A DNA stretch of 34,349 nucleotides, from the NCBI GenBank assembly GCA_028280525.1, contig JANQLR010000216.1, forward strand, positions 1 to 34,349. The letters run 5' to 3'. The notes under the pieces were generated by a model. It was not told the origin of the DNA and did not search any database. It was given only the letters and a program-made list of their open reading frames with translations. Origin of the DNA: Longimicrobiales bacterium (lineage in GTDB: Bacteria > Gemmatimonadota > Gemmatimonadetes > Longimicrobiales > Gaopeijiaceae). This document shows positions 15,261 to 24,176 of this stretch, piece by piece (the first letter of the stretch is position 1; each line of letters begins with the position of its first letter). A program made the position numbers and the translations under genes.

Positions 15261-15734
15261 CTACTCCCCGAAGACCCGCTCGTGCAACTCCGCGATCGCC
15301 CCTCGGCCGCCCTCGGCCTCGAGCACCACGTCGACAACCGCGCGCAGCGCCGGGACCGCGTTCGCGGGACACGCCGACCACCCCGCAATCCGGGCCGCCT
15401 CGACGTCCTTCGTCGAGTCGCCCACGAATCCCACCTCCGACAGGGGGACGCCGCGCTGCCGGGCGACCCGCTCCAGTACGGCGGCCTTGTCCTTCGCCCC
15501 GCGGTGGAAGGCGCTCCAGGGGAAGCGGTCCTGCAGCACCTCGGTCATCCGGCTCGCCTCGCCGGTGACGGCGATGAGGGGGACGCCGCGTCGGTGGAAG
15601 GAGAAGAGCGCGTCGATGTCGATGAAGGAGAGCGACTTCGATTCCCGGCCATCCTCGTCGATCAGAACCCGACCGTCGGTGAGGACACCGTCGAGATCGA
15701 GGAAGAGGAGGGCGGGACGTCGGAGTCGGGTCAC
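15261..15734 (-). CDS. KdsC-type HAD phosphatase (probable nonulosonic-acid phosphate phosphatase)
   Basis: A 157-residue C0-class HAD phosphatase like KdsC and the KDN/NeuNAc-9-phosphate phosphatases. Seen: nucleophile motif DLDGVLTDG, the ITG-like threonine in IAVTGEASR, lysine in RGAKDKAAVLE, the acidic motif FVGDSTKDVEAA, and the KdsC-like tail GGRGAIAELHERVF. The GTG start at 15734 overlaps the stop of the NeuB-like gene (GTGA), so the two are translationally coupled. KdsC-type enzymes dephosphorylate the product of a PEP-condensing sugar-acid synthase, which fits the neighbour exactly. Which sugar phosphate it acts on (Kdo-8-P, KDN-9-P or Neu5Ac-9-P) cannot be read from sequence; a 9-phosphate is favoured by the NeuB-family partner. 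Confidence 0.88.
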   Translation of the reverse strand: MTRLRRPALLFLDLDGVLTDGRVLIDEDGRESKSLSFIDIDALFSFHRRGVPLIAVTGEASRMTEVLQDRFPWSAFHRGAKDKAAVLERVARQRGVPLSEVGFVGDSTKDVEAARIAGWSACPANAVPALRAVVDVVLEAEGGRGAIAELHERVFGE

Positions 15735-16558
15735 ACCCGCCTCAGCTTGTCGCGGGCCGGGCGCTCGACGTCGAGGAGCCGCTGCTCCCCGTCCCCCCGG
15801 ATCTGCTCGACCCGGCGGATACGCTGTACCATGCACCGCATCTCCCCCGGCTCCACCGAGAGCTTCTGATCGGAGCCGAACCACCCGCGATCGAGGGTGA
15901 AGTGGCGCTCGACGACGGAGGCGCCGAGCGAGACCGCGACGAGGGAGGCCAGGTCGTCCGCCTCGTGCCCCGACCACCCGACCGGGAGCCGGTAGCGGTC
16001 GCGCAGCGATCGGACGCGCCGAACGTTGGCGTCCGCGTCGGCGGTCGGGTAGGCGCTCGTGCAGGCCAGGAGGATCGTCCACTCCGGGTCGACGACCTCG
16101 AGCGCGGCGTCGACCTCCTCCAGCGTGGACATTCCCGTCGAGATGATCAGGGGACGGCCGGTCTCCGCCGCACGGCGGACGAGCTCCAGATCGGTGAGCA
16201 TCGGCGAGGAGATCTTGTGGAAGCCGGGCTCGAGCGCCTCGACCTCCTCGAGGGCGCCGACGTCCCAGGCGGAGGCTCCGAAGAAGAGCCCGAGCCGGTC
16301 GCACTCCTCGATGATCGGCCCGTACTCCTCGACGGAGAGCTCGAGCGCCCGCTTGAGGTCGCCGTTCGTGTCGCCGAAGGGCGACTCCCGGGGCCGCGCC
16401 AGCTCCGCCTCCGAGTACACGACGTCCACCGTCCGCTTCTGGAACTTCACGGCGTCGCACCCCGCCGTGTGGGCCGCGCGGACCATCTCGAGCGCCTTCT
16501 CGACCGAGCCGTTGTGGTTGATGCCGATTTCGGCGATGACGAAGGTGCGGGAGTTCAC
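15731..16558 (-). CDS. NeuB-family sialic/nonulosonic acid synthase lacking the SAF domain
   Basis: A 275-residue NeuB-type synthase, which condenses phosphoenolpyruvate with a hexosamine, hexose or its phosphate to a nine-carbon sugar acid. The GTG start gives the family N terminus (FVIAEIGINHNG). Further signatures are CDAVKFQKR, FHKISSP, LIISTGMS, LLACTSAYPT, GWSGHE (His198) and VERHFTLDR (His219, the expected metal ligands). The TIM-barrel domain is complete, but the protein stops at PARDKLRRV, where NeuB enzymes (about 350 residues) continue into a roughly 60-residue antifreeze-like SAF domain that closes the partner's active site. The stop overlaps the HAD start by four bases. No CMP-sialate synthetase or epimerase gene is in the window. 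Confidence 0.9.
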   Translation of the reverse strand: MNSRTFVIAEIGINHNGSVEKALEMVRAAHTAGCDAVKFQKRTVDVVYSEAELARPRESPFGDTNGDLKRALELSVEEYGPIIEECDRLGLFFGASAWDVGALEEVEALEPGFHKISSPMLTDLELVRRAAETGRPLIISTGMSTLEEVDAALEVVDPEWTILLACTSAYPTADADANVRRVRSLRDRYRLPVGWSGHEADDLASLVAVSLGASVVERHFTLDRGWFGSDQKLSVEPGEMRCMVQRIRRVEQIRGDGEQRLLDVERPARDKLRRV

Positions 16559-16701: not shown

Positions 16702-17937
16702 TCAGACGCGGCGGAAGACGAGCGCCGCGTTCGAACCCCCGAAGGCGAAGGAGTTGGAGAGGGCGTACTCCGCCCCGTGCGCCGGCATCTCCTCGACCGG
16801 GAGGAGCGGCAGGGCGCAGTCGGGATCGACGGACTCCAGGTTGGCGGTCGGAGGGATCCGCTGCTGTCGCAGCGCTTCGATCGTCCACGCCGCCTCGATC
16901 GCCCCGGCGGCCCCGACCAGGTGGCCGTGCGCCCCCTTGGACGAGCTGACCGGGAGCGATCCGAGGTGATCTCCGAAGACCTCCCGGATCGCCTCGCACT
17001 CGACGACGTCACCCTGGATCGTGGCGGTGGCGTGCGCGTTCAGGTAGGCGATCGCGTCCGGAGGGAGTCCAGCGTCCTCCAGCGCCACCCGCATCGTGCG
17101 GATCTGTCCGTCCGCCAGCGGGGCGGTCAGGTCGTGCGCGTCGCTCGCCGCGCCGTACCCGACAATCTCGGCCAGGGGACGCCCCCCGCGAGCCTCGACG
17201 GCGGCCTCGGACTCGAGGAGGAAGACGGCCGCTCCCTCACCCATCACGAGCCCGGTGCGCCCCGAATCGAAGGGCCGGCTCGCTCGATCCGGCTCTCCTT
17301 CGGCATTGGCCAGCGCACCGAGCTGCTGCCAGGCCGTGACGGTCGCGCGGGTCAGCTGCGCCTCCGTGCCTCCCGCGAGGACGCGCTCGAGATACCCGTC
17401 CCGCACCGCGCGGAAGGACTCGCCGAGCGCCATCGCCGAGGAGACGCACGCGACCGCCCACGACTGGACGGGCCCCTTCGCACCCGTGTGCATCGACAGG
17501 TGCGCGGAGGCGGCGTTCGACATGATCAGCGGGACCGCAGCGGGCCGCAGGCGGGAGCCGGCCCGCCAGCCGCCGTACTCGCTCTGGAGGTACTCCGCGC
17601 CCCCCAGCGCCGACCCCAGGTAGACGCCGAGGCGCTCCAGCTCGGGCTCCTCCGGCTGCCACCCGGCGTGCTGCAGCGCATCGACTCCCGCCACCACCGC
17701 CATCCGTCCGGCCCGGGGCATCAGCCGGGCACGCATGCGGGGGATCACCGGCGATGGGTCGAACTCCGCCGGTGCGACGATGGCGTCCTCCTCCGGTCGC
17801 TCCCCCTCGCGCGGCAGGATGGAGCCCGCGGTCCGCCCGGTGCAGAGCGCGTCGAAGGCGGTCTCGACCTCGTTGCCGATCGGCGAGACGACGCCGATCC
17901 CGGTGACGTAGACCCGTTGACGGGCCCGGTCAGGCAC
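16702..17937 (-). CDS. Beta-ketoacyl-ACP synthase (KAS I/II, FabF-like)
   Basis: A 411-residue condensing enzyme, usual length for FabF. It decarboxylates malonyl-ACP and joins it to an enzyme-bound acyl group. The thiolase-fold triad is complete: Cys164 in VACVSSAMALGE, His302 in NAHATATIQGD (the HATAT form also found in plant KAS I, rather than HGTGT) and His339 in GAHGHLVGAAG, with Lys334 before it. It ends in SNSFAFGGSNAALVF. The GTG start overlaps the stop of the acyl carrier protein gene by eight bases, so the pair is one transcriptional unit. Its place next to an alpha-oxoamine synthase suggests a specialised lipid pathway rather than housekeeping fatty-acid synthesis; this is an inference. 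Confidence 0.93.
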   Translation of the reverse strand: MPDRARQRVYVTGIGVVSPIGNEVETAFDALCTGRTAGSILPREGERPEEDAIVAPAEFDPSPVIPRMRARLMPRAGRMAVVAGVDALQHAGWQPEEPELERLGVYLGSALGGAEYLQSEYGGWRAGSRLRPAAVPLIMSNAASAHLSMHTGAKGPVQSWAVACVSSAMALGESFRAVRDGYLERVLAGGTEAQLTRATVTAWQQLGALANAEGEPDRASRPFDSGRTGLVMGEGAAVFLLESEAAVEARGGRPLAEIVGYGAASDAHDLTAPLADGQIRTMRVALEDAGLPPDAIAYLNAHATATIQGDVVECEAIREVFGDHLGSLPVSSSKGAHGHLVGAAGAIEAAWTIEALRQQRIPPTANLESVDPDCALPLLPVEEMPAHGAEYALSNSFAFGGSNAALVFRRV

Positions 17938-18169
17938 CGCTCGTGCCGATCAGCTCGTCGACGATGCGAACCGCCTCGCCGAGCGTACCGAAGTTCGCCT
18001 GATCGTCGCTCAGGACGATCTCGAACTCCCGCTCGACCTCGCGCACCAGCTCGGCCGTGGAGAGGGAATCGAGCCCCATCTCGACCGGGGTGGCCTCGGG
18101 TCGGACATCGTCCGGGTGGACGCCGAACTCCTCGACGAGGAGCTGGGAAAGGAAGGGGAGGGCGGACAT
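17930..18169 (-). CDS. Acyl carrier protein
   Basis: A 79-residue acyl carrier protein. Ser35 in EMGLDSLSTAELV is the phosphopantetheine attachment site; the following acidic helix (REVEREFEIVL) and the final VRIVDELI helix match the four-helix ACP fold. The ATG at 18169 was chosen because it gives standard ACP length; the frame is open upstream but reads as non-coding. No strong ribosome-binding site is present. The gene sits between the oxoamine synthase gene (112 bases upstream) and the condensing enzyme (overlapping downstream). Dedicated ACPs beside serine-palmitoyltransferase-like genes are known in several bacteria, so it probably carries the acyl chain for that enzyme. Confidence 0.92.
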   Translation of the reverse strand: MSALPFLSQLLVEEFGVHPDDVRPEATPVEMGLDSLSTAELVREVEREFEIVLSDDQANFGTLGEAVRIVDELIGTSGA

Positions 18170-18192
18170 GGAGGACTCGGAGCGGAACGCTT

Positions 18193-18211
18193 CGTAAGGA
18201 CGGAACTTACG
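18193..18211 (-). promoter_or_regulatory. Perfect inverted repeat just upstream of the ACP gene
   Basis: CGTAAG and CTTACG form a perfect six-base inverted repeat around a seven-base centre (gacggaa), 24-42 bases before the ACP start. Position and symmetry fit an operator for a dimeric repressor over a promoter for the ACP-KAS pair. The short stem and lack of a T-tract argue against a terminator. The regulator is unknown. Confidence 0.4.
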
Positions 18212-18281
18212 GCCACCGCGGGGTGGGATTCCAGTGGTTGGGTCTCGTAGCGGGGTCTGCGGAGGAGGTGACCGCGACGCC

Positions 18282-19478
18282 TCAGATGAGGCCGTGGCGT
18301 CGCCCCACGCGGGTCCAGGCATCGAGCGCCCGGTCGAGGTGATCCCGGGTGTGCGTCGCCATGTAGCTGGTGCGGATCAGCGCCCGGCCCGGTTGCACGC
18401 CAGGCGAGACGAAGGGGTTCGTGTAGACCCCGTGCTCCTCGAGGAGCTCCTGCCACACGTGCAGGGTGCGGGCGTCGTCGCGGATGAAGACGGGGACGAT
18501 CGCCGTCGAAGTCTCCCCGAGGTCGAAGCCGAGCGACCGCAGCCCCTCGACCACGTAGCGCCCGTTCTCCTGAAGCCGTTCGATCCGCCACGGCTCCTCC
18601 TGCATCACCTCGAGCGCCGCGAGGGCCGCCGCGACCGTCGATGGGGCGCCGCTCGCGGCGAAGATGAAGGAGGGCGCGTGGTGGCGCACGAAGTCGAGGA
18701 CGTCGGCCCGGCCCACGAGGAAGCCGCCGGTACTCGCCAGCGACTTTGAGAAGGTGCCCCCGATCAGATCCACCCGTGACTCGACGCCGAAGTGGTGCGC
18801 CGTCCCCCGTCCACCGGGACCGAGCATCCCGAGGCCGTGAGCATCGTCGACCAGGACGCGCACGCCTCTCGCCTCCAGCGGCGGGAGGAGAGCCGGCAAG
18901 TCGCACACCTCGCCCTCCGCGCTGTACACCCCGTCCGCGATCAGGAGTGCGGCTTCGCTCTCCTGCAGGCGATCCAGCTGGCGTTGGAGCGAAGTCACGG
19001 AGTTCCGGCGATAGCGGACGAAGCGGGCACCGCCGGCGAGCGCGAGGCGGATCCCGTCGTAGATCGAGGCGTGCACGCTCCGGTCGATGAGCGCGACGTC
19101 GCCCTCGCCCAGGAGCGCCGCGCAGACCGCCAGGTTGACCTGATACCCGGTCGTGAAGACGAGCGCGGCCTCGTATCCGTAGAACTCCGCCAGCCGCTCC
19201 TCGAGCTCCTCGTGCAGCGCCATCGTGCCGTTCACGAAGCGCGACCCGGTCATGCTCGTGCCCAGGGTCCCGATCGCCTCCGTGGCCGCCGCACGCACCT
19301 TCGGGTGGGTCGTGAGACCGAGGTAGTTGTTGGACCCGAGCATCAGGACCCGCCGACCGTCCAGCACCGCCTCCGGCCCGTCGTTCAGCTCGAAGGAGCG
19401 GAAGTAGGGGTAGGTCCCGGCGCGCCGAGCCTCCCGCGCCGCCTCGAAGGCGCGCACCTTCTCCCAGAGGTCGCTCAC
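18282..19478 (-). CDS. Alpha-oxoamine synthase (serine palmitoyltransferase/AONS-like PLP enzyme)
   Basis: A 398-residue PLP enzyme that condenses an amino acid with an acyl thioester, releasing CO2, to give an amino-ketone. Active-site residues are present: His136 in IDRSVHASIYDG (stacks on PLP), Asp211 and His214 in VDDAHGLG, and Lys245 in GTFSKSLASTGG (Schiff base). The YPYFRSFE start, LGSNNYLGLTTHP, TGSRFVNGTMALHEELE and the RTSYMATHTRDHLDRAL tail are closer, by recall, to bacterial serine palmitoyltransferase-like enzymes than to BioF; no other biotin gene is nearby. The GTG start overlaps the FMO stop by four bases. With the following ACP and KAS genes it suggests a sphingoid-like or aminolipid product. 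The amino-acid substrate is unknown. Confidence 0.9.
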   Translation of the reverse strand: MSDLWEKVRAFEAAREARRAGTYPYFRSFELNDGPEAVLDGRRVLMLGSNNYLGLTTHPKVRAAATEAIGTLGTSMTGSRFVNGTMALHEELEERLAEFYGYEAALVFTTGYQVNLAVCAALLGEGDVALIDRSVHASIYDGIRLALAGGARFVRYRRNSVTSLQRQLDRLQESEAALLIADGVYSAEGEVCDLPALLPPLEARGVRVLVDDAHGLGMLGPGGRGTAHHFGVESRVDLIGGTFSKSLASTGGFLVGRADVLDFVRHHAPSFIFAASGAPSTVAAALAALEVMQEEPWRIERLQENGRYVVEGLRSLGFDLGETSTAIVPVFIRDDARTLHVWQELLEEHGVYTNPFVSPGVQPGRALIRTSYMATHTRDHLDRALDAWTRVGRRHGLI

Positions 19479-20773
19479 GCCGCGCCCACCTCGCGCAGGG
19501 CTCGGTCGAGGGCGGCCTGGTAGACCGCACCGCGTACGTATACGTCGTGCCTCGGACTACGTACATACCGACGACCGCCCCGAAGGTCCGGCCGGTGCGT
19601 GCGTCGTCGCTCGTCGAAGGCCCCGACGTCCCCGCCGTCGCGGCGGCGCTCCAGCCACGCGCCCACCAGTTCGGCCTGCTTCCCGATGAGCGGGTACGCC
19701 GCCCCGTCCGTCTCGAAGACCCCCAGGAAGAAGAGGTCGGGGTACCGTCTCGAGAAGACGTTCAGGTAGAGATCTGGAAGCTCCTCCACAGGCTCGCGAT
19801 CCTCCCCCCGGAGGAATGGGAAGCGCCACGCGTACCCCGTCGCCCAGACGATCAGGTCGAAGCTCTCCTGCACCCCGTCCGCGAAGCTGACCGCGGCGCC
19901 GTCGATCGAGGTCACGTCCCGCCGCGCCTCGATGTCGCCGTGCGAGAGGTGGTGGAGGAGCTGCGTGTTCATGATCGGGTGGGAGCGCAGGATGGGGTGA
20001 TCGGGTCGCTGCAGGCCGTAGCGCTCGAGATCTCCGACCAGCAGCCGCCCGACCAGGAGGCCGAAGATCCGCTCCTCGAGCCAGGTCGGCATGGTCGGAC
20101 CCGAGTGCGCGAAGACGTCCGCGGGCACCCCGAAGATGTGTTTGGGGATGAAGTGATAGCCACGGCGGAGACTGATCCGGGCGGAGCGCGCGTGGCGGGC
20201 CGCGTCGCAGGCGATGTCGACACCCGAGTTCCCGCCCCCGACGACCAGGACCCGCTTGCCCGAGAAGAGGTCGGGGGAGCGGTAGTCGAAGGAGTGCATC
20301 TCCTCCCCCTCGAAGCGGCCGGCCAGCTCCGGCATGCGCGGGTACCAGGTCATCCCCGTCGCGACCACCAGCGCCGAGGCCTCGATCTCCTCCCCCGAGT
20401 CGAGACGGACGCGCCAGCGCCCCTCCCCCACCCGCGTCGCCTCCTCCACGCGCACGCCGAAGGTGATGTGGTCCACGAGGTCGTGGTGGGTCGCGTACGA
20501 CTCGATGTACGCCTGAATCCGGTCGTGCGAGGGGTAGTCGGGGTACGTCTCCGGCATCGGGAAGTCGGGGAGGCCCGACACCGACCGCGAGGAGATGAAG
20601 TGTGCCGACTCGTACATCGGCGTCCGCTCCCGGTCGATGTCCCAGATGCCGCCCGGCTTCCGCCCGGCATCGACGATCCGGCAGGGGAGTCCCCGCCGCC
20701 GAAGCGCCGCCCCGGCCATGAGGCCCGAGGGACCCGCGCCCACGACGAGGATCGGAGGGTGGGAGCTCTGCAT
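19475..20773 (-). CDS. FMO-type flavin-dependent monooxygenase
   Basis: A 432-residue flavin-containing monooxygenase. In order: FAD-binding GAGPSG (residues 12-17), the FMO fingerprint FxGxxxHxxxY as FEGEEMHSFDY (154-164), the NADPH-binding GGGNSG (179-184), and the ATGY-like motif in VWATGYAWRFPFL. The family oxygenates soft nucleophiles (N or S) or, in Baeyer-Villiger relatives, ketones. The ATG has a GGTAGGA site seven bases before it. The gene starts 22 bases after the oxyR stop and overlaps the alpha-oxoamine synthase gene by four bases, so it belongs to that operon. It may oxidise the amine or ketone made by the synthase; this is inference. Confidence 0.9.
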   Translation of the reverse strand: MQSSHPPILVVGAGPSGLMAGAALRRRGLPCRIVDAGRKPGGIWDIDRERTPMYESAHFISSRSVSGLPDFPMPETYPDYPSHDRIQAYIESYATHHDLVDHITFGVRVEEATRVGEGRWRVRLDSGEEIEASALVVATGMTWYPRMPELAGRFEGEEMHSFDYRSPDLFSGKRVLVVGGGNSGVDIACDAARHARSARISLRRGYHFIPKHIFGVPADVFAHSGPTMPTWLEERIFGLLVGRLLVGDLERYGLQRPDHPILRSHPIMNTQLLHHLSHGDIEARRDVTSIDGAAVSFADGVQESFDLIVWATGYAWRFPFLRGEDREPVEELPDLYLNVFSRRYPDLFFLGVFETDGAAYPLIGKQAELVGAWLERRRDGGDVGAFDERRRTHRPDLRGGRRYVRSPRHDVYVRGAVYQAALDRALREVGAA

Positions 20774-20795: not shown

Positions 20796-21716
20796 TCACG
20801 AGGAGAAGTCCGTCTCCAGACGCGTCGAACGAATGACCTCGAGGAGCCGGCGCACGCGCCGAGCGCTCGGCGTCGACGGGCGGAAGGCGACTCCGATCGT
20901 GCGGGTCGGGGTCGGGTCGTGAATCCGCCGCCACGCCACCCGCTCCGAGAGCGCTCGGGGGATCCGCGCCGCGAGCGACGGTACCACTGCGCACCCGACT
21001 CCGGCGGCCACCATCCCGAGGAGGGTCTCGACCCCGGTCGCGTGGGCCGGGACGACGCTCCCGACGCCTCCGCAGACCTGAAGCGTGTTGTCCCGAAGGC
21101 AGTGCCCGTGCTCCATCAGGATGACCTCGCCCGCGGGGACATCGTCGCGGGCGACGTGCGGTGCGGCGGCGAGGGGGTGCGCGGCCGGGAGGGCGAGCAC
21201 GAGCTCCTCCTCGAAGAGCGGGGTCTGCTCCAGGCCGTGGTCGCCGACGGGGAGGGACAGGATCGCGGCGTCCAGGCGGTCCGCCTGCAGCGCACCGATC
21301 AGCTGCTCCGTCAGCGCCTCGGTCAGGAGGTAGCGGGCCTCGGGAAAGGCGTCGATCAGCGGCGGGAGGAGCGAGGGAAAGAGGTAGGGTCCGAGGGTGG
21401 GGATCGCCCCGAGGCGGACGTATCCCGTGACCGACTCGCCCTCGTCGGACTCGGGGGTCAGCGCAGCGGACTCGAGGAGGACGCGGTCCACCGTCTCCAG
21501 GATGAAGACGCCCTCCGGCGACAGCTCGACGCGGCGGGAGGTGCGCGAGAAGACGGTGCACCCGACGGCGGCCTCGAAGCGGCGCACCAGCGCCGAAAGC
21601 GACGACTGCGCCATCCCGCACGCCTCCGCCGCCCGACCGAAGTGGAGCGTCCGGGCCAGGACGGAGATCGCCCGGAGATCTCGAAGGGACAGTCGTTGGA
21701 GCGCGTCGGACAGCAT
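20796..21716 (-). CDS. oxyR: LysR-family peroxide sensor OxyR
   Basis: A 306-residue LysR regulator. The N-terminal helix-turn-helix spans about residues 8-65 (LRAISVLARTLHFGRAAEACGMAQSSLS...). The effector domain contains the OxyR redox centre HCLRDNTLQVC, with Cys206 and Cys215 nine apart as Cys199 and Cys208 are in E. coli OxyR, which form a disulfide on contact with H2O2. The ATG at 21716 gives the usual N terminus; the frame stays open far upstream through antisense katG, which is not coding. There is no Shine-Dalgarno site. It is divergent from katG, the classic OxyR target, and only 22 bases before the flavin monooxygenase gene on the same strand. Confidence 0.95.
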   Translation of the reverse strand: MLSDALQRLSLRDLRAISVLARTLHFGRAAEACGMAQSSLSALVRRFEAAVGCTVFSRTSRRVELSPEGVFILETVDRVLLESAALTPESDEGESVTGYVRLGAIPTLGPYLFPSLLPPLIDAFPEARYLLTEALTEQLIGALQADRLDAAILSLPVGDHGLEQTPLFEEELVLALPAAHPLAAAPHVARDDVPAGEVILMEHGHCLRDNTLQVCGGVGSVVPAHATGVETLLGMVAAGVGCAVVPSLAARIPRALSERVAWRRIHDPTPTRTIGVAFRPSTPSARRVRRLLEVIRSTRLETDFSS

Positions 21717-21950: not shown

Positions 21951-24176
21951 ATGGCTGAAGAGACCGGACCGAAGGCGGGCAAGTGCCCCGTCATCCACGG
22001 CGCCCCCGGACAGGGGTCGCTCGAAGGACGCACCAACCGGGACTGGTGGCCGAACCGCCTCAAGCTCGACATGCTCCACCAGAATCAGCCGGTGTCGAAC
22101 CCGATGGCGGACGACTTCGACTACGCGGCGGAGTTCGCGAAGCTCGATCTGCAGGAGCTCCGGAAGGACCTCTTCGAGCTGATGACCGACTCGCAGGAGT
22201 GGTGGCCGGCCGACTACGGGCACTACGGCCCCTTCTTCATCCGCCTCGCCTGGCACTCGGCCGGGACCTACCGGCTGACGGACGGCCGCGGCGGCTCCTC
22301 CTCCGGGACGATCCGCTTCGCGCCCCTCAACTCGTGGCCGGACAACGGGAACCTGGACAAGGCGCGCCGGCTCCTCTGGCCGATCAAGAAGAAGTACGGG
22401 CGGAAGATCTCGTGGGCCGACCTCATCATCTTCGTCGGCGACTGCGCGATGGAGTCGATGGGCTTCGAGACCTTCGGCTTCGCCGGCGGCCGTGAGGACC
22501 GCTACGAGCCGGAGATCGACATCTACTGGGGCCGCGAAGACAACTTCCACGGGCCCGACTTCGTGCAGGAGCGCTTCAGCGAGGAGCGCGAGCTCGAGGT
22601 GCCGCTCGGGGCCTCCGAGATGGGGCTCATCTACGTGGACCCGCAGGGGCCGGACGGGAAGCCCGATCCGATGGCCGCCGCGCACGACATCCGCGTCACC
22701 TTCGGCCGGATGGCGATGAACGACGAGGAGACCGTCGCGCTGATCGCCGGGGGGCACACCTTCGGGAAGATGCACGGCGCCGGTCCGGGGTCGCACCAGG
22801 GCGCCGAGCCCGAGGCGGCCGCGATCCAGGAGCAGGGCTTCGGCTGGACGTCGGACTACAGGTCGGGGCACGGAGTCGACACGATCACCTCCGGCCTCGA
22901 GGGTGCCTGGACGCCCGATCCGACGAAGTGGGACAACGGGTACTACGACACCCTCTTCGGCCACGAGTGGGAGCTGACGAAGAGCCCCGCCGGCGCCTGG
23001 CAGTGGGCCCCGAAGGACGGCGCCTCCGCCGACGCCGTGCCGGACGCGCACGACCCGAACGTCCGACACGCTCCGGTCATGGCGACGACCGACATCGCCA
23101 TGATGGAGGACCCGGAGTACCTGAAGATCTCGAAGCGCTTCCACGAGGACTTCGACTACTTCCGCGAGCAGTTCGCCAAGGCGTGGTTCAAGCTCACGCA
23201 CCGCGATCTCGGACCGAAGTCGCGCTACCTGGGCGCGGAGATTCCCTCCGAGGATCTCCTCTGGCAGGATCCCATTCCCGCGGTCGATCACGAGCTGGTC
23301 GACGCCGACGACATCGCCGCCCTCAAGGCGAAGATCCTCGACTCCGGCCTCTCGATCGGGCACCTCGTCTCGACGGCGTGGGCGTCCGCCTCGACCTACC
23401 GCGACTCGGACCGTCGGGGCGGAGCGAACGGCGGTCGGATCCGCCTGGCGCCGCAGAAGGACTGGACGGTCAACCAGCCCGGTCGTCTGCAGAAGGTCTT
23501 CGAGGTCCTCGAGACCATTCAGAGCGAGTTCGAGGCGTCGCAGAACGGGAGCGGCAGGAAGATCTCGATGGCGGACCTGATCATCCTCGGCGGGTGCGCC
23601 GCGGTCGAGAAGGCGGCGAAGGACGCCGGCGTTCCGGTGGAGGTCCCCTTCACCCCGGGCCGGACCGACGCCACCGACGAGATGACCGACGCGGACTCCT
23701 TCCGCTGGCTCCAGCCGGTCGCCGACGGCTTCCGGAACTACGAGTCGGCCGTCCTTCCGCTCAAGACGGAGGAGCACCTCGTCGACAGGGCGCAGCTCCT
23801 CACGCTGAGCGGGCCGGAGATGACCGTCCTCGTCGGGGGGATGCGGGTGCTGAACGCGAACTTCGAGCAGTCGAAGCACGGCGTCCTCACCGATCGCCCG
23901 GAGCAGCTCACGAACGACTTCTTCGTGAACCTCCTCGACATGGGCACGAAGTGGGAGCCGACCGACGCCGAGGAGCGGACCTTCGAGGGGCGCGATCGCG
24001 CCACCGGCGACCTGAGGTACACCGCCACCCGCGCCGACCTGATCTTCGGCTCGAACTCGCAGCTGCGCGGGATCGCCGAGGTCTACGGTGCGGACGACGC
24101 GCACGAGCAGTTCGTGCACGACTTCGTGGCGGCGTGGGACAAGGTCATGATGCTCGACCGCTTCGACGTGACGTGA
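21951..24176 (+). CDS. katG: Catalase-peroxidase KatG
   Basis: A 741-residue bifunctional heme catalase-peroxidase that removes H2O2. It has the standard two-domain length. Distal heme residues are Arg98, Trp101 and His102 in [13 protein letters not shown]; the proximal ligand is His269 in [10 protein letters not shown]. The Met-Tyr-Trp adduct needed for catalase activity can form from Trp101, Tyr228 (GLIYVDPQG) and Met254 (GRMAMND). The C-terminal, heme-free repeat starts near [18 protein letters not shown], where the distal motif is degenerate, as is normal. The ATG has no strong ribosome-binding site. It is divergently paired with oxyR, implying induction by peroxide, and is followed by a GC-rich hairpin. 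Confidence 0.97.

Follow-up and report, generated by a model that had tools for sequence, protein, structure and literature searches.

What is made by a compact block in which a flavin-containing monooxygenase (FMO), an alpha-oxoamine synthase (AOS), an acyl carrier protein (ACP) and a beta-ketoacyl-ACP synthase (KAS) are encoded one after another on the same strand? This question is raised by a stretch of 34,349 nucleotides (the window) from a Longimicrobiales bacterium of the family Gaopeijiaceae, phylum Gemmatimonadota (assembly GCA_028280525.1, contig JANQLR010000216.1). The window spans the full length of contig C293, one of the 427 contigs of a 4.15-Mb draft genome with 94.75% completeness. 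Sphingolipids are membrane fats that were once thought to be rare in bacteria. Bacterial sphingolipids are placed in Bacteroidetes and Proteobacteria in the relevant part of PMC9386255. Our analysis suggests that the block encodes the first step of a split sphingolipid (ceramide-type) pathway. In this explanation, KAS loads the ACP, later enzymes are encoded on contigs C76 and C119, and the FMO and a neighbouring NeuB-HAD gene pair stand outside the pathway. The explanation as a whole is given a probability of about 0.68. The four genes of the block are as follows.

19475..20773, minus strand: FMO-like flavin-containing monooxygenase, 432 amino acids (aa), 158 bits on the FMO-like family, outside the conserved unit.
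18282..19478, minus strand: SPT-type alpha-oxoamine synthase, 398 aa, the condensing enzyme of the block, assigned by profile, PDB match, tree and AlphaFold model (SPT, serine palmitoyltransferase).
17930..18169, minus strand: dedicated ACP, 79 aa, with Ser35 in a GLDSL motif, 40 bits on PP-binding.
16702..17937, minus strand: dedicated FabF-like KAS, 411 aa, with N- and C-terminal ketoacyl-synt domains.

The coordinates agree with the first-pass annotation, which had described four same-strand genes with a GTGA overlap between FMO and synthase and an 8-base overlap between ACP and KAS. The FMO and synthase genes overlap by 4 bp, 112 bp separate the synthase from the ACP, and the ACP and KAS genes overlap by 8 bp. 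A longer ACP open reading frame (ORF) reaching 18322 is a matter of start-site choice. Library families were FMO-like for the FMO, Aminotran_1_2 for the synthase, PP-binding for the ACP, and ketoacyl-synt N and C for KAS. The active-site residues are intact, as had been claimed. H136, D211, H214, K245 and R369 of the synthase are invariant in a 12-row alignment, and C164, H302 and H337 of KAS are invariant in a 10-row alignment. Ser35 of the ACP stands within the GLDSL motif, and the FMO has the FMO-class motifs GAGPSG and FEGEEMHSFDY.

The best NCBIfam model of the synthase is serine palmitoyltransferase (NF047600, 455 bits against a cutoff of 640). The bioF model gave 332 bits (cutoff 426) and glycine C-acetyltransferase 329 bits, and no model reached its cutoff. 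The name "SPT-type" was chosen because the synthase scores under the curated SPT cutoffs. The synthase of locus L041 (528 bits), which adjoins homologues of two later ceramide enzymes (Aca and a short-chain dehydrogenase/reductase, SDR), also falls under the SPT cutoff. Among solved relatives, Sphingobacterium SPT scored 370 bits, two Sphingomonas SPT entries 268 and 265, a thermophilic oxoamine synthase 255, KBL 233 and cysteate acyltransferase 230. Among E. coli references, BL21 Spt scored 248 bits, Kbl 224 and BioF 149. The AlphaFold model (pLDDT 94) has Sphingobacterium SPT (8guh/3a2b) as its top structural match, with a TM score of 0.96 and 46% identity.

A tree of 55 rows places the synthase in a 13-row clade (support 100/100), composed of rows from seven genomes of its own Gemmatimonadota family and from six loci labelled Myxococcota or delta-proteobacteria. 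The tree and motif-table rows included 30 of the 80 named loci among the matches listed and 20 AOS genes of genome loci; the selection aimed at a broad spread and was not random. BioF and Kbl of E. coli, together with the C137 paralogue from the window's genome, fall outside the SPT group (100/93). SmSpt and SpSpt lie inside a 51-row SPT-like group (99/97), the inner order of which is without resolution. A BioF or KBL identity was thus rejected by profile, tree and structure, and a CqsA identity by profile only. By tree, structure and residues, the synthase is of the SPT type, yet it remains under the curated cutoffs. The tree proposed in the first-pass annotation therefore came out as clustering with SPT, apart from BioF and Kbl. 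In a side observation, the clade SPT ORFs of the Myxococcota loci L138, L139 and L141-L143 begin roughly 120 to 195 codons upstream of the aligned region, and these proteins are likely to carry an N-terminal extension.

The residues around the active site were compared with those of known enzymes. In PMC9304779, as far as the relevant passages go, carboxylate-binding Asn and Arg, a stacking His and the Lys that holds pyridoxal phosphate are described, and Ala in SPT versus Lys281 in SulA is given as the serine/cysteate marker. N50, R369 and A275 are kept in 13/13 clade members, and K245 and H136 are also present. The SulA cysteate acyl-ACP transferase (7U7H; 28EH) shares the fold with the window synthase, and acyl-ACP use by SulA is described in the same passages of PMC9304779. 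However, the position of SulA Lys281 is occupied by Ala275 in the window synthase, as in SPT, and SulA is the weaker match (230 against 370 bits for SPT). On the basis of the Lys281 position, the sulfonolipid (SulA/CapA) reading was set aside, and the capnine-like product suggested earlier is unlikely.

The clade also carries its own signature. Window position 274 is Ala in all 13 members and Ser (36) or Thr (6) in the 42 other rows; position 277 is Gly or Ala in all 13 and Met, Leu, Pro or Ile in all 42 others. In addition, a three-residue insertion after DGxRL is found in 13/13 members and is complete in 0/42 other rows. The closest solved structure, Sphingobacterium multivorum SPT (3A2B/8GUH), shares the Ala at the SulA-Lys position with the window synthase. 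It differs by lacking the insertion and by having FSASMTP in place of the clade motif of the FAAS[GA][AS]P type. The synthase therefore looks SPT-like by the Ala275 marker, but its active-site region appears remodelled, and its substrates are predicted. It can be hypothesized that the substrate of this SPT subfamily is not serine but another amino acid, from which a different class of long-chain base is formed. The clade signature, the long stem branch of the clade (0.74 in the 55-row tree) and the scores under all SPT model cutoffs favour this hypothesis. In contrast, the substrate-binding residues N50, R369 and H136 and the SPT-versus-SulA residue A275 are kept, and ceramide enzymes of the Aca/Epi type are linked to SPT in both groups (Gemmatimonadota and Myxococcota/delta). 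A non-serine substrate is consequently regarded as unlikely.

The strongest evidence for a functional module is the conservation of SPT, ACP and KAS. Homologues of the synthase were detected in 9 of 121 family genomes (E 1e-90), seven of which belong to the SPT clade; at this threshold, the five further genomes of the window's genus gave no match. ACP and a non-housekeeping KAS follow SPT in all seven family genomes with this clade; the KAS of G120 (L037) is truncated at the end of its contig and was counted from a 41% match. The linkage is more than chance. Thus, the proposed SPT-like synthase with a dedicated acyl supply was borne out, and the outcome that the first-pass annotation had named as contrary (grouping with BioF, housekeeping KAS and ACP, no linkage) gave way to an SPT clade, a special KAS and linkage in 7/7. 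Six of these seven genomes have, between SPT and ACP, the gene of an SDR with about 330 residues; only the window is without it.

The window ACP is 54-56% identical to the SPT-adjacent ACPs of G035, G036 and G117-G120. In BLAST comparison, it scored 34 bits with E. coli AcpP and 20 bits with BL21 AcpR, and it is not AcpR-like. The window KAS reaches 382 bits on the fabF equivalog (cutoff 494) and narrowly misses the wider PRK07314 subfamily (381.6 against 387). The genome's own housekeeping FabF on C10 exceeds the cutoff of the fabF model with 602 bits; its neighbourhood was interpreted as a plsX-fabH-fabD-fabG cluster. In the KAS tree, which has long branches (the window's, 0.98, among them), all 12 special KAS rows are separated from FabF/FabB of E. 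coli and from the own FabF with 100/100 support. A housekeeping identity of KAS was rejected by this tree and by the fabF score compared with the C10 copy.

A second ACP-KAS pair lies beside the first in G117-G119 and nearby on the opposite strand in G035 and G036. It is conceivable that the ACP-KAS pair serves the synthesis of an unrelated lipid and merely adjoins SPT. This alternative is suggested by the nine family genomes with a special KAS and without this SPT clade, six of which (G089-G093 and G113) have an Aca-type gene on the same contig. However, ACP and KAS come directly after SPT, or after SPT-SDR, in 7/7 SPT-clade genomes, and the window KAS clusters with the SPT-adjacent KAS of G035/G036 (98/98) instead of with second copies. 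These findings make an unrelated lipid decidedly improbable. Two related arrangements were observed. A second special ACP-KAS pair of the window's genome is found on contig C216 (L245:5316-6796), with a KAS of 384 bits on fabF, under the cutoff. In G092 (L275:3651-9851), an Aca-type GNAT, a gene read as glycosyltransferase-like and an ACP-KAS pair are clustered, and no SPT match occurs there.

Ceramide synthesis needs to be considered beyond the first step. In the part of PMC9386255 that treats Caulobacter and E. coli BL21, Aca is the N-acyltransferase and epi the presumptive reductase of ceramide synthesis. A GNAT profile (11 rows) from the family that accompanies SPT matched BL21 YghO/Aca with 371 bits, and an SDR profile (11 rows) built in the same way matched BL21 epi with 204 bits. 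Homologues of both are beside SPT in 19/24 opened class-wide loci. An Aca homologue is near the clade SPT in G036 and G117-G120, and it follows SPT within about 1.2 kb in 4/6 Myxococcota/delta clade loci. An Aca-type gene is present in 9/9 SPT genomes and in 46/112 others of the family (Fisher p 0.0006, a value that ignores kinship).

The window's own genome has one Aca homologue, on C76, which is 44% identical to the SPT-linked copy of G119 and 30% identical to BL21 YghO (178 bits). Its candidate reductase is an SDR on C119, which scores 182 bits on the SPT-linked SDR profile, compared with 88 and 61 bits for two generic epimerases of the same genome and 204 bits for BL21 epi. The absence of a ketone reductase from the block, noted in the first-pass annotation, holds in the window itself, but an SDR stands between SPT and ACP in the other six genomes and a truncated candidate is present on C119.

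Because of the ACP-KAS linkage in the clade, the SDR candidate on C119 and the Aca homologue on C76, a split ceramide pathway is the most likely explanation. At the beginning of this process, KAS would condense an acyl chain with malonyl on the dedicated ACP, and shared fatty-acid reductases and a dehydratase would complete the chain on the same ACP. SPT would then take the chain from the ACP and couple it, releasing CO2, to an amino acid, for which serine is the most likely candidate; the product would be 3-oxo-sphinganine. Finally, the Aca/bCerS-type N-acyltransferase (C76) and the Epi/CerR-type reductase (C119) may convert this product to dihydroceramide. The private ACP would thus be loaded by KAS through chain extension, whereas Rhodobacteria load AcpR by the acyl-ACP synthetase AasR. 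On this reading, what had been proposed as a new amino-lipid pathway comes down to a variant of bacterial ceramide-type synthesis.

Two known arrangements are close to the block. The rhodobacterial set aasR, epi, acpR, spt and aca, as covered in PMC9386255 for Caulobacter and E. coli BL21, also has an SPT with an adjacent specialised ACP, and homologues of Aca and Epi are in the window's genome. The window block differs by having KAS instead of AasR, by an ACP that is not AcpR-like, and by its gene order and SPT subfamily. The class-wide Gemmatimonadota SPT-Aca-SDR clusters share SPT with the block. Their SPTs are 45-51% identical to that of the window and form a separate clade, and no ACP or KAS match was found in their loci at E 1e-4.

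Several observations weigh against the split ceramide pathway. First, the synthase is under all curated NCBIfam SPT cutoffs (455 against 640, 365 against 500 and 289 against 670 bits); together with the altered motif near the active site in the clade, this means that an amino acid other than serine may be the substrate. The 55-row tree is midpoint-rooted and has long outgroup branches. Second, a special KAS also occurs in 9/114 family genomes without this SPT clade. Third, no SDR match was found in the window at E 1e-4, so a ketoreductase was not found in the block, and an SDR remnant in the 112-bp gap between SPT and ACP was rejected. The SDR on C119 is truncated where the contig ends (262 aa), and pairwise comparison with SPT-linked SDRs gave 64-113 bits (at least 109 in 2/18), against at least 109 among the SPT-linked SDRs themselves. 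Fourth, the Aca homologue on C76 is paired with a glycosyltransferase, and it may serve another lipid because the same arrangement is kept in SPT-less genomes of the family. Finally, no AasR was found among the 16 window proteins scanned, and the rest of the genome was not searched for AasR. The pair of glycosyltransferase and Aca-type GNAT in SPT-less family genomes was seen in L220, L223, L224 and L228-L230, where the Aca-like enzyme perhaps acts on another substrate.

The FMO had been presented as a member of a four-gene FMO/SPT/ACP/KAS pathway, and the gene order was to be checked in related genomes. SPT-ACP-KAS was recovered in 7/7, but the FMO adjoins SPT in the window alone (1/7 SPT-clade genomes). 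FMO relatives (E 1e-60) are present in 52 of 395 phylum genomes. The seven closest share 57-63% identity and form an 8-row clade with the window FMO (100/99). No SPT match was found in the opened pieces (4.2 to 15 kb) around these seven. Six of their genomes are without SPT at E 1e-90, and the seventh (G035, an SPT-clade genome) has its FMO on another contig. Two of the seven are from same-genus sister genomes without SPT, at a common location beside genes read as lspA and DUF411-like. Five genomes of the phylum sample have both SPT (E 1e-100) and FMO (E 1e-60) matches, and only in the window's genome are both on one contig. No FMO match was found in the 80 named loci among the matches listed, many of them short, nor in 30 further AOS loci. 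A conserved FMO-SPT link, sought around SPT, around FMO and by contig in the phylum sample, was therefore rejected, as none was seen outside the window. In the open-licence PMC literature, no paper was found on the nearest solved FMO (8z12).

These results place the FMO outside the conserved unit, and it is probably a newcomer beside the SPT block. The GTGA overlap with SPT suggests co-transcription, and the FMO would be a lineage-specific neighbour in the same transcript. A functional role on the SPT product was also considered, in which N-hydroxylation or Baeyer-Villiger oxygenation of the 2-amino-3-ketone would give an oxidised amino-ketone lipid instead of ketone reduction in the block. 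The 4-bp overlap, the intact FMO-class motifs, and the presence of the FMO exactly where the SDR of the other six clade genomes is absent are consistent with such a role, the last being a single case in which cause and chance are inseparable. Against it stand the closest relatives away from SPT, the single co-occurrence on one contig among five genomes, the FMO-free AOS loci and the candidate reductase on C119, and the role is decidedly unlikely. A still bolder combination is very improbable, namely that the amino-ketone base made by a separate SPT subfamily, remodelled around its active site and supplied by the KAS-loaded private ACP, is oxidised by the co-transcribed FMO and not reduced within the block, resulting in an undescribed lipid class.

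The split ceramide pathway leaves the flanking genes outside, and these were overlooked when the four genes, themselves real, were described.

20796..21716, minus strand: OxyR-like LysR regulator (LysR_substrate/HTH_1; OxyR NF008361 at 206 bits, under the cutoff of 329).
15731..16558, minus strand: NeuB-type nonulosonate synthase without SAF domain, 275 aa (PF03102 at 226 bits; NnaB at 230, under the cutoff of 400).
15261..15734, minus strand: KdsC/KDN-9-phosphatase-like HAD, 157 aa (NF058599 at 87 bits, under the cutoff of 180), with a GTGA overlap with NeuB.
21951-24176: katG, divergent from the LysR gene.

The order of transcription on the minus strand is OxyR-like LysR, FMO, synthase, ACP, KAS, NeuB and HAD phosphatase. 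The lipid block starts 22 bp after LysR and may therefore share a transcript with an oxidative-stress regulator, which makes the LysR gene a possible first gene of the block transcript. The promoter and terminator scan gave one promoter-like and one terminator-like site, neither of them between the genes at issue. The katG gene shares 72-77% identity with the katG genes of four congeneric sister genomes, and this speaks against mis-binning of the contig; the fifth, G044, gave no match. G045 has the LysR-KatG pair without the block, and neither block nor LysR was found around katG in G042, G043 and G046, where the pieces covered 15 to 16.5 kb. The GC content of the block genes (0.67-0.73) is like that of the flanks and is uninformative on foreign origin.

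NeuB lies downstream of KAS on the same strand, across a gap of 143 bp, and overlaps the HAD gene by 4 bp. This proximity raises the idea of a nonulosonate head group, in which NeuB and HAD would supply an acidic sugar for a ganglioside-like glycolipid; in G117-G120, sulfotransferase, Aca-type and sugar-transferase genes are located ahead of SPT. However, the NeuB-HAD pair is near SPT in only 1/7 SPT-clade genomes. NeuB relatives (E 1e-45) occur in 22/395 genomes, the window's included, and the best relative (51%, in G299) is beside a HAD gene. A HAD relative is by NeuB in 5/6 opened loci of relatives, in three of them within an ORF read as starting like a CMP-sugar synthetase, and an SPT match was found in 0/6. 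Moreover, the genome's own cytidylyltransferase on C78 adjoins a Maf flagellin glycosyltransferase. A head-group role is thus extremely unlikely. NeuB-HAD is probably a separate acidic-sugar pair, independent of the block, for which a flagellar or surface sugar role is the simplest reading.

A longer run was observed in L037-L040 (G120, G119, G118 and G117), in which a PF17784 sulfotransferase, an Aca-type GNAT, a DXD sugar transferase, SPT, SDR, ACP and KAS are found together; in three of the four, the run also includes a second ACP-KAS pair. The families were named on L038, and homologues were then found in all four genomes. This run is a candidate sulfated glycosphingolipid cluster, judged from gene families.

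What is new in the block is the KAS partner of SPT and the clade-specific change in the SPT active-site region. Among the open-licence PMC papers listed for SPT with KAS, FMO or Gemmatimonadota, no title or opening abstract was found to describe such a block, and the main text of PMC9386255 does not contain the word "ketoacyl". Together, the Gemmatimonadota/Myxococcota SPT subfamily and the Gemmatimonadota ACP-KAS pair suggest a second route of acyl commitment to sphingolipids, by extension on a private ACP and not by an acyl-ACP synthetase. In G117-G120, the same block together with the sulfotransferase, the sugar transferase and the Aca homologue would predict sulfated glycosphingolipids.

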